A stretch of DNA of 47,567 nucleotides, taken from positions 1 through 47,567 of the forward strand of contig CANFNA010000005.1 in NCBI GenBank assembly GCA_947448395.1, given 5' to 3'. The notes beneath the pieces were generated by a model. The model had not been told where the DNA came from. It was given only the letters and a program-made list of their open reading frames with translations, and made no database searches. Below, in pieces: positions 43,998 to 46,924 of the stretch; positions within the stretch are counted from its first letter, which is position 1, and the number at the start of each line of letters is the position of its first letter. This DNA is from Chthoniobacteraceae bacterium (GTDB lineage Bacteria; Verrucomicrobiota; Verrucomicrobiia; Chthoniobacterales; Chthoniobacteraceae). The position numbers and the translations under genes are program-made.

Positions 43998-44117
43998 AAA
44001 CTGCTTAAAGTTGGCACGGTGATGGTGCGCAACACGCGCCGGATCAGGCTGCTTCTGAGCAGCGCCTATCCTTACCAAAAGCTGTTCACCCACGTGGCCA
44101 TGGCGCTGAGGCTTTGA
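43998..44117 (+). pseudogene. IS1380-family-like transposase, C-terminal remnant
   Basis: Direct translation KLLKVGTVMVRNTRRIRLLLSSAYPYQKLFTHVAMALRL* resembles the C-terminus of IS1380-type DDE transposases; no upstream catalytic domain present. Confidence 0.65.
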
Positions 44118-44273
44118 TGGCTCAAAAGGCAGTGCCGCGGTGCAGCACCAGCCGATGGGGGTTGGGGCAATCTGCCCCGGATCCACGACGTATCCTTCCA
44201 GAGCACCCAAAAACGCCGACTCTTCTCGCCGTTCGCGGATTGTTGCCTCCAGTTCCGATTTCGTCTCGGGGGC

Positions 44274-45611
44274 ATGAACATCTACCGGGCACGTAATCCG
44301 CGCAAATCGCCCCTCTGGCAGTGCGCCCACCGCCACTTTTCCACCTTCCTCACACATTACCCGGACGACTATCAGCCCCGTCACGGGCCACTGCGACCCA
44401 CCATCCCTCAGGTCGTCGACAAATTCCTCCACTGCGGCAACCTCGAACGCGGTTTCGCACGCATCCGCTGTGATAACTGCGGCCTCAACGCGCTCCTGGC
44501 CTTCTCCTGCAAATCACGCTGGTTCTGCCCGTCCTGCCACCAGAAAAACGTCCAGACCTGCGCCGAATTCCTCGTCGGTCGCGTCCTTGCCGCAGTCCCC
44601 CACAGGCATTACGTCCTCGCTCTGCCGAAGATGCTCCGCGCCTATTTCCAAAGGCACCGCCCTCTCCTGAAGCATCTCTGCACTGCAGCCCATCAGAGTC
44701 TCACTCTTTATTTGCGCTCCGCACTCGGCAAATCCAAGGCGCATCCCGCCATCATTCTCACCCTCCACACCTTTGGCGAATACCTCGATTTTCATCCCCA
44801 CATCCACGCGCTCGTTACCGACGGCCTATTCACACGGGACGGCCAATTCCATCCCCTCTCCGAACTTCCCCTTAAGCCTTTAGAGGAAATCTTCCGCGCC
44901 CATGTGATCCAACTGTTAGTCGACCTCGACCTGCTCCCGCATGATCGTGTCCGTCTTCTGCACTCATGGAAACAAACCGGCTTCAACGTGCACCGCGGAG
45001 AAAGCATTCCACCCGAAAACAAGGCCGTCCTCGAACAGCTCGCCCAGTATATTCTGCGCAACCCGTTTTCAGTCGCCAAAATGACGCTCCACTCCGGAGG
45101 CGAGAAGGTCATCTACCGCTCCAAATTGAATCCGAAGATCAACCGCAACTTCGAGATTTTTACGGGACCGGACTTTCTAGCAACGATCACTCAGCACATT
45201 CCCGACAAGGGCGTGCAGATGATCCGTTACTACGGTTGGTACTCCAACAAAATGCGCGGTCAACGGCATCGCCGCGAAAACGGTGATGTTCCGGCAAATC
45301 CGTTGCGCCCGCCTTGCACACCTCCACCGCCTGCGAGGCTACCTTCCAAAAAATGGCGGGATGTCATTCTCAAAGTCTGGCACACCGACCCGCTGATTTG
45401 CCCACATTGCCAGCAACGGATGCGAGTGATTGCAGTGATTGATCAACGGAAGGTGATCAAAAAGATCCTGCTTCATCTCGACTTGTGGAGCGGACTGCCA
45501 GCGTTCATGCCACCTCGGGGACCGCCCCCTGCCATTCCCAAGCACTGGGAGGCAGACGATCCACAATCCCGGGATCCGTTTCCCGACTACGACAACGTGT
45601 TTACCGACTGA
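44274..45611 (+). mobile_element. IS91-family transposase (HUH/rolling-circle type)
   Basis: 445 aa; Zn-finger-like CDNCGL...CKSRWFCPSCHQKNVQTCAEF; HUH motif FHPHIHALVTDG; Tyr motif PDKGVQMIRYYGWYSNKMRG; C-terminal CPHCQQRMRVIAVI. Confidence 0.92.
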
Positions 45612-45639
45612 TCTCTTGCGCATACCCCTGTTTGTTTTC

Positions 45640-45650
45640 GGGTCTGACCA
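45640..45650. repeat. 11-bp inverted repeat, left arm GGGTCTGACCA
   Basis: Exact reverse complement of 45782-45792. Confidence 0.7.
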
Positions 45651-45781
45651 GGGAAGAAAGCACCGCGCCCAAATTTCCGGATGAGCTAGGATGTTTACCG
45701 AGATAGGCCAAGACAGCCGCTCAATCGGCGACGGAAAAAAACGTATCGGCGTGACGAATTCCTAATTTTTCGCGCGAGACA

Positions 45782-45792
45782 TGGTCAGACCC
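45782..45792. repeat. 11-bp inverted repeat, right arm TGGTCAGACCC
   Basis: Exact reverse complement of 45640-45650. Confidence 0.7.
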
Positions 45793-45835
45793 AGGGAATC
45801 CGCCCCATGTTCCAAACCCTCAAAAGCAATTCTCC

Positions 45836-45907
45836 CTTTAGCGCGCCCCGCGACGATACCGCGCGCGCGAGCTGCGGAAACGGGGCAAAAAGCATTTTCT
45901 TATCACT
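45836..45907. repeat. 72-bp exact direct repeat, copy 1
   Basis: CTTTAGCGCGCCCCGCGACGATACCGCGCGCGCGAGCTGCGGAAACGGGGCAAAAAGCATTTTCTTATCACT, identical at 46634-46705. Confidence 0.97.
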
Positions 45908-46633
45908 TAAACGCATCATCATTAGGAGTGTACAGCCAGCCTGCGCGGCGCTGCTGCTTGTGGCTGCGGGCGCCGCCCGAGGGGAGATTCCGCGCGTGGT
46001 TCATACGATGTTCGAGAACCGCTGCCTTGACTGCCACGATGCGGATTCCAAGAAGGGCAATCTGGACCTCACCGCTCTAAAGCCGGACTTCGGCGATACG
46101 GAGACGTTTGGGACGTGGTTAAAGGTGCATGACCGCATCGCCTCGGGTGAAATGCCGCCGAAGAAGAAAGCACGGCCAGAGGTGGGAGAGTTGAAGGCGG
46201 TGACCGCGTGGATGGCGGAGTCGCTCGTGAAGGCCGAACGCACACGGTTGGATGGTGAAAGCCGCACGGGGGTGAGGCGACTCTCGCGGGCGGAATATGA
46301 GAATACGGTGCGCGACCTCTTTGACCTGCCGGGCCTCGCGCTACAAAGCGGACTTCCTGCGGACGGCTCAGCGCATGGGTTCGATAAGAACAGCGAGGCG
46401 CTCGATATCTCGCATGTAAATCTGGCGAAGTATCTCGAAGCGGCCGACAAAACGCTCGACCTCGCGATCGCCACACAGCCGCAAGCACCGGAGCGGCAGA
46501 CGCATCGCATCTCGCTCGCGCGTCATGTGTATCTCATCCTCATGAACGGCGATGCAGTCATGCTCAAGGATCAGAGGCGGGACACAACCTTTCCAGCCTC
46601 GGGGGAGCATTACCATGTGGGCCCTGGCGAGCA
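45908..46633 (+). pseudogene. 5' fragment of a PSCyt1/DUF1587-DUF1592-type cytochrome gene (within ORF 45807-46802), truncated at both ends by the 72-bp repeat
   Basis: LKRIIIRSVQPACAALLLVAAGAARGEIPRVVHTMFENRCLDCHDADSKKGNLDL...RRLSRAEYENTVRDLFDLPG...HGFDKNSEALDIS; family-like N-terminal half followed by repeat-derived sequence. Confidence 0.72.
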
Positions 46634-46705
46634 CTTTAGCGCGCCCCGCGACGATACCGCGCGCGCGAGCTGCGGAAACGGGGCAAAAAGCATTTTCTTA
46701 TCACT
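46634..46705. repeat. 72-bp exact direct repeat, copy 2
   Basis: Identical to 45836-45907, same orientation, 798 bp apart. Confidence 0.97.
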
Positions 46706-46924
46706 AACATCACACAAGGCGACAATGCGGCCAAACCGGGAAGCGTTTTTCGCATCGCCCTTCCCCATGCCTCCACAACCGATCAGCGCAATCGCCGGTT
46801 GATCGTCCACTACCGTTGCAGCAGCGGCTGATTGAGCCAACTCGTTCAGATACCAGTTCGGCAGAGACGTTGCCGCGGCCGCTGCTGCGGCTGTCTGGAG
46901 AAAACTTCGTCGGTTGGTGTTCAT
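46706..46924 (-). pseudogene. Gfo/Idh/MocA-family oxidoreductase, 5' fragment with Tat-like leader, truncated at repeat copy 2 (within ORF 46610-46924)
   Basis: MNTNRRSFLQTAAAAAAATSLPNWYLNELAQ...PAIALIGCGGMGKGDAKNASRFGRIVALCDV, then directly repeat-encoded SDKKMLFAPFPQLARAVSSRGALK. Confidence 0.75.

Follow-up and report, generated by a model that had tools for sequence, protein, structure and literature searches.

IS91 and ISCR elements are suspected movers of genes, and the natural evidence comes mostly from full elements. ISCR are IS91-like elements bounded by oriIS and terIS, and are able to mobilise adjacent DNA; in the system described here it is the solo termini that abound, and no sign was seen of intact cargo genes moving with the transposase. 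IS91 transposition initiates at the element's right end and terminates at its left end or at look-alikes of the latter (PMC3189936). In the case of IS801 from Pseudomonas syringae, right-end fragments of 229-679 nt represented 26.3% of the trapped IS801 insertions, adjacent gene fragments were also mobilised, and most natural IS801 fragments were argued to come from reorganisation (PMC3189936); ori-anchored deletions were made by this element as well (PMC6354349). Our locus resembles IS801 in its Y2 transposase, its fixed right end, and the movement of short pieces of that end and of fragments of adjacent genes. It differs in that the IS801 trap fragments measured 229, 360 and 679 nt, whereas here one size of about 70 bp, with a fixed left edge, predominates and has accumulated in dozens of copies. 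Two more distant systems share some of these traits. Helitrons of eukaryotes also combine HUH rolling-circle transposition, gene-fragment capture (inferred in our case) and a subterminal palindrome, but here there is no helicase fusion and the palindrome is unsupported by folding tests. REP/BIME elements, too, are short dispersed sequences associated with an HUH transposase, but they are moved by a Y1 RAYT, whereas the repeat reported here is linked to a Y2 IS91 element.

The window, i.e. the whole stretch of DNA analysed (47,567 nucleotides), is the entire contig C5 of a MAG of 3.18 Mb (268 contigs, 82% complete). The initial annotation had described an exact 72-bp direct repeat in one orientation with a spacing of 798 bp, and this is borne out: the two copies, R1 (45836-45907) and R2 (46634-46705), are 100% identical and lie on the same strand. 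The first base, a C, matches by chance at each of the two sites, so the unit is 71 bp long (TTTAGCG...TTATCACT). R1 (45837-45907, + strand, TTTAGCG...CTTATCACT) is very probably the right terminus of an IS91-type element, and R2 (46635-46705, + strand) is a solo copy identical to it. The 726 bp between them (45908-46633), annotated as a piece of a PSCyt/DUF1592-like gene, do carry PSCyt1 and PSD3/DUF1587 domains; this 5' fragment of a PSCyt1/PSD3 gene extends over 45908-46634 on the + strand, and its homology to intact relatives begins at 45935 and ceases at the left edge of R2. On the other side, the right edge of R2 truncates a Tat-signal gene, leaving a 5' fragment (46706-46924, - strand) whose residues, read by eye, are probably those of a Gfo/Idh-like protein (Gfo/Idh/MocA family type). 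One open reading frame (45807-46802) spans both R1 and R2, and the same peptide is read from both because 798 is a multiple of three. A meaningful repeat-encoded peptide is unsupported, and the frames through other copies differ. The complementary arms pointed out in the repeat are present as strings, but the special single-stranded fold suggested for them was not supported: neither strand showed more stability than shuffled sequences (z -0.42 to +0.79), and covariation across 35 copies gave nothing useful.

R1 begins 225 bp past the end of a transposase gene (44274-45611, + strand) encoding 445 aa with no stop. The protein contains Zn_Tnp_IS91 and Y2_Tnp domains (PF14319, 4e-18; PF04986, 1e-26), an HUH motif (FHPHIHAL at residues 173-180, with HxH at 176-178) and paired tyrosines four residues apart (YYGWY at 319-323, Y319 and Y323). 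Comparison with other copies indicates a full copy of an IS91-type element on the + strand, with its right end at 45907 and a poorly defined left end between 44213, the limit of the sequence common to copies of genomes G009 and G002, and 44250, the limit for the copy of G006, which aligns to 44250-45913 of the window at 90%. The 3' non-coding part of the element (45612-45836, + strand) ends with AAAAGCAATTCTCCC (45822-45836), a motif that partly recurs at the right end of the element. To the left of the element, region 44006-44219 has a 78% match on contig C53 of this genome and looks by eye like the tail of another transposase gene. The other copies that include the IS91 3' region end where R1 ends, and the position of the right end (oriIS) 3' of the transposase gene, typical of the IS91 family, is common to the long copies and kept in distant relatives. 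The proposal that the repeat is a conserved part of some multicopy element holds, although it is not a separate cassette; what had been missed is that it forms the right end of an IS91-type element with the transposase just upstream. The repeat is thus, with high probability, the right (oriIS) terminus of an IS91-family element, mostly dispersed as a mini-element of about 70 bp with a fixed left edge. The observed parts of this explanation are the full element with its conserved terminus, the sharp-edged and dispersed copies, and the gene cut at the left edge of R2.

The 72-mer is multicopy in the source genome and its relatives, and counts go far beyond chance. The own assembly contains 16 matches (76-100% identity), the other copies being 76-96% identical to R1 and R2 over the matched parts and the longest 86-91%; dozens more are found across the genus. 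When 96 relatives were searched, nearly all of them drafts, the repeat was found in 22 other genomes, most strongly in its own genus of freshwater Chthoniobacteraceae (MAGs), where it is present in 11 of the 12 genomes searched with 0 to about 40 copies per genome. Exact 21-mer matches elsewhere belong mostly to Chthoniobacteraceae or Spartobacteria MAGs, and some appear under doubtful names, e.g. Akkermansia muciniphila. No match was obtained in Rfam with the repeat, in phages with the 72-mer, or in plasmids with the 3' region of the element.

Alignment of the flanks revealed sharp edges at TTTAGCG and TTATCANT, which bound the short form. Over 86 short copies the information content is about 0 to the left of TTTAGCG, and on the right it is about 0 from two bases past TATCANT. 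About 13 copies extend leftward into the IS91 3' region and have right flanks that are all different (14 are classed as long by sequence pattern, among which L107 may be short). A single right end is therefore common to the solo copies of about 70 bp, to the longer 3'-region copies and to the full copy, and the left end varies. Pairwise comparison of flanks gave 34 pairs with only the left (IS91) flank in common; as right flanks differ after a common left flank, the moving end of the IS coincides with the right end of the repeat. In 15 pairs, all of type B, only the right flank is common. Both flanks are common in 3 pairs, which correspond to one array in G002 and G009, so almost no positions are common between species over the stretches compared. 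A clean empty site was not found for any solo copy, and among the matches listed the local search gave only self or shared-array ones; for R2 and L139, left and right flanks are not contiguous in relatives. A GAAC/CAAG target tetranucleotide is known for IS91 and IS801 and may differ in this clade: contrary to IS801, no such tetramer was seen here, nor any conserved one beyond the right end TTATCANT of the copies.

Several particular arrangements were observed among the flanks. In type B, the left edge of the repeat opens a conserved segment of about 0.8-0.95 kb, with different left flanks at six loci (L128:1959, L104:8113, L081:7567, L089:3783, L133:3187 and L132:7100); this segment contains a nucleotidyltransferase-like ORF (by eye) and is possibly a separate non-autonomous element. 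In type C, TGCTATGAGGTTGGTCAAGCT follows copies of both subfamilies of the element (L112:329, L013:364, L243, L244; the second subfamily is described below). At loci L258 (tandem), L102:3286 and L236, the terminal motif is present as head-to-tail units of only some 20 nt (AAAAGCGATTTCCTATCAGC and similar).

Of 57 cases of copies adjacent to each other on one stretch, 49 are co-oriented (p = 3e-8), a descriptive figure since repeat-bearing stretches were chosen, similar arrays are included and co-directional genes may contribute. Co-oriented repeats with gene-sized DNA between them recall integron cassette arrays (attC), but in the present case the repeat is very probably an IS91 terminus and the fragments are cut, not whole cassettes; no attC core of the GTTRRRY type was seen by eye in the repeat consensus. 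About 1 kb beyond a four-copy array, a tyrosine-recombinase-like ORF (by eye) is present at L067:2877-4061 (contig of L121).

R2 is a junction, because the PSCyt1/PSD3 gene is cut at its left edge and the Tat-signal gene at its right edge. The closest homologue of the former (91%) runs on where the window gene ends, at the left edge of R2. A similar cut is found on contig C7, where the G004 homologue extends past the repeat edge. N-terminal parts of alpha-galactosidase-like, GH28-like and sialidase-like proteins also occur at left edges, these names being readings by eye. The suggestion that copies join unrelated gene fragments is correct for some of them, but truncated genes are not the usual context: a long open frame runs into the repeat at about 15 of 172 edges (86 copies), compared to 31% at random positions. 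Cut genes are exceptions, and most other copies are located outside long reading frames. An impression that genes start just to the right of the repeat was dropped (40 of 86 copies, versus 41.5% at random positions).

The R2 junction goes back to one of three processes: one-ended transposition, a deletion associated with it, or recombination of one copy with another. The last process, a homologous recombination (deletion or rearrangement) between dispersed copies leaving the left flank of one and the right flank of another, concerns the origin of the junction and not the identity of the repeat. It is a serious rival, because most natural IS801 fragments are ascribed to reorganisation (PMC3189936) and both MITEPsy2 and IS801 are known to cause repeat-mediated deletions (PMC6354349); moreover R2 is flanked by unrelated genes, the gene is intact in a relative, and the type B segment follows the repeat after different left flanks at six loci. 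However, 71 bp is short for efficient recombination, the identity of R1 and R2 while other genome copies have diverged fits recent local copying at least as well, and the spread of solo copies is left unexplained. We consider recombination a quite possible origin of the junction, if somewhat less than probable. An assembly artefact, with a single copy shown twice or a wrong join at the contig end, would suit identical copies bracketing a fragment about 900 bp from a contig end in a MAG of 268 contigs and 82% completeness, but it is very unlikely given a repeat present in 11 of the 12 genus genomes searched and gene cuts recurring elsewhere at its edge.

A second IS91 subfamily (L160, L118) shows a matching terminal architecture with a different core, and it ends in AAAAGCAATTCTCCCTTAACCC..GCAAAAAGGGATTTCCTATCATT. 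Its terminal 64 bp or so are also dispersed, in 10 of 12 genomes, and their left edge TTAACCC is at the homologous place. Genome G008 contains 23 subfamily-2 end matches versus one of the window's type, and G000 contains zero subfamily-2 ends. In the left flank of L160, a degenerate repeat copy stands directly before the left end of the subfamily-2 element. In two other families of the order, IS91 relatives with 52-55% aa identity terminate in AAAGCGATTTCCTATCA or AAAGCGTTTTCCTATCA; this terminal motif is located about 100-250 nt past the end of the transposase match and is dispersed in those two families too. For family f6, sharp-edged solo copies on the left side are not claimed, several matches beginning at contig ends. 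A view of the 71-bp repeat as a dispersed sequence in its own right, beside which IS91-type elements preferentially insert, would agree with most copies being solo and with three draft genomes (G003, G007, G010) having copies and no transposase match, but it is hardly credible when a second subfamily possesses its own divergent, architecturally matching terminus and solo family, and when distant relatives keep the terminal motif at its distance from the transposase. The dispersal of the terminus, the second subfamily and the motif in distant relatives lead us to propose that the repeat acts like a MITE and is produced by one-ended (ori-anchored) rolling-circle transposition, a process demonstrated experimentally for IS801.

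In such a one-ended process the Y2 transposase would nick the right end (..TTATCANT) and, we infer, peel the strand leftward. Synthesis would often stop about 70 nt away, at the sequence that follows AAAAGCAATTCTCCC, releasing the short unit. A secondary terminator is placed there because AAAAGCAATTCTCCC, to the left of the short form, resembles the right-end or ori-side motif AAAAGCAATTTCTTATCA. Read-through would produce longer units or carry neighbouring DNA along, and solo ends could then serve as origins and also provide portable homology. Within the window, R1 would belong to a full element at the 5' end of the PSCyt1/PSD3 gene and R2 would be a solo end inside this gene; in the presumed order of events, a later one-ended event, deletion or recombination would have joined the right side of R2 to an unrelated gene.

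For annotators, these results are a warning that any reading frame crossing the repeat is chimeric. A further proposal, in which solo ends offer a trans-acting Y2 transposase both its origin and its terminator and any DNA between two co-oriented copies can move as a cassette, is improbable; if true, it would reveal an integron-like, Helitron-like gene-shuffling system in a freshwater Verrucomicrobia genus. Two IS91 subfamilies, each with a family of solo origin ends of fixed size that form co-oriented clusters and are sometimes located at cut genes, would constitute a natural record of one-ended transposition and make the origin and the terminator of this clade testable.
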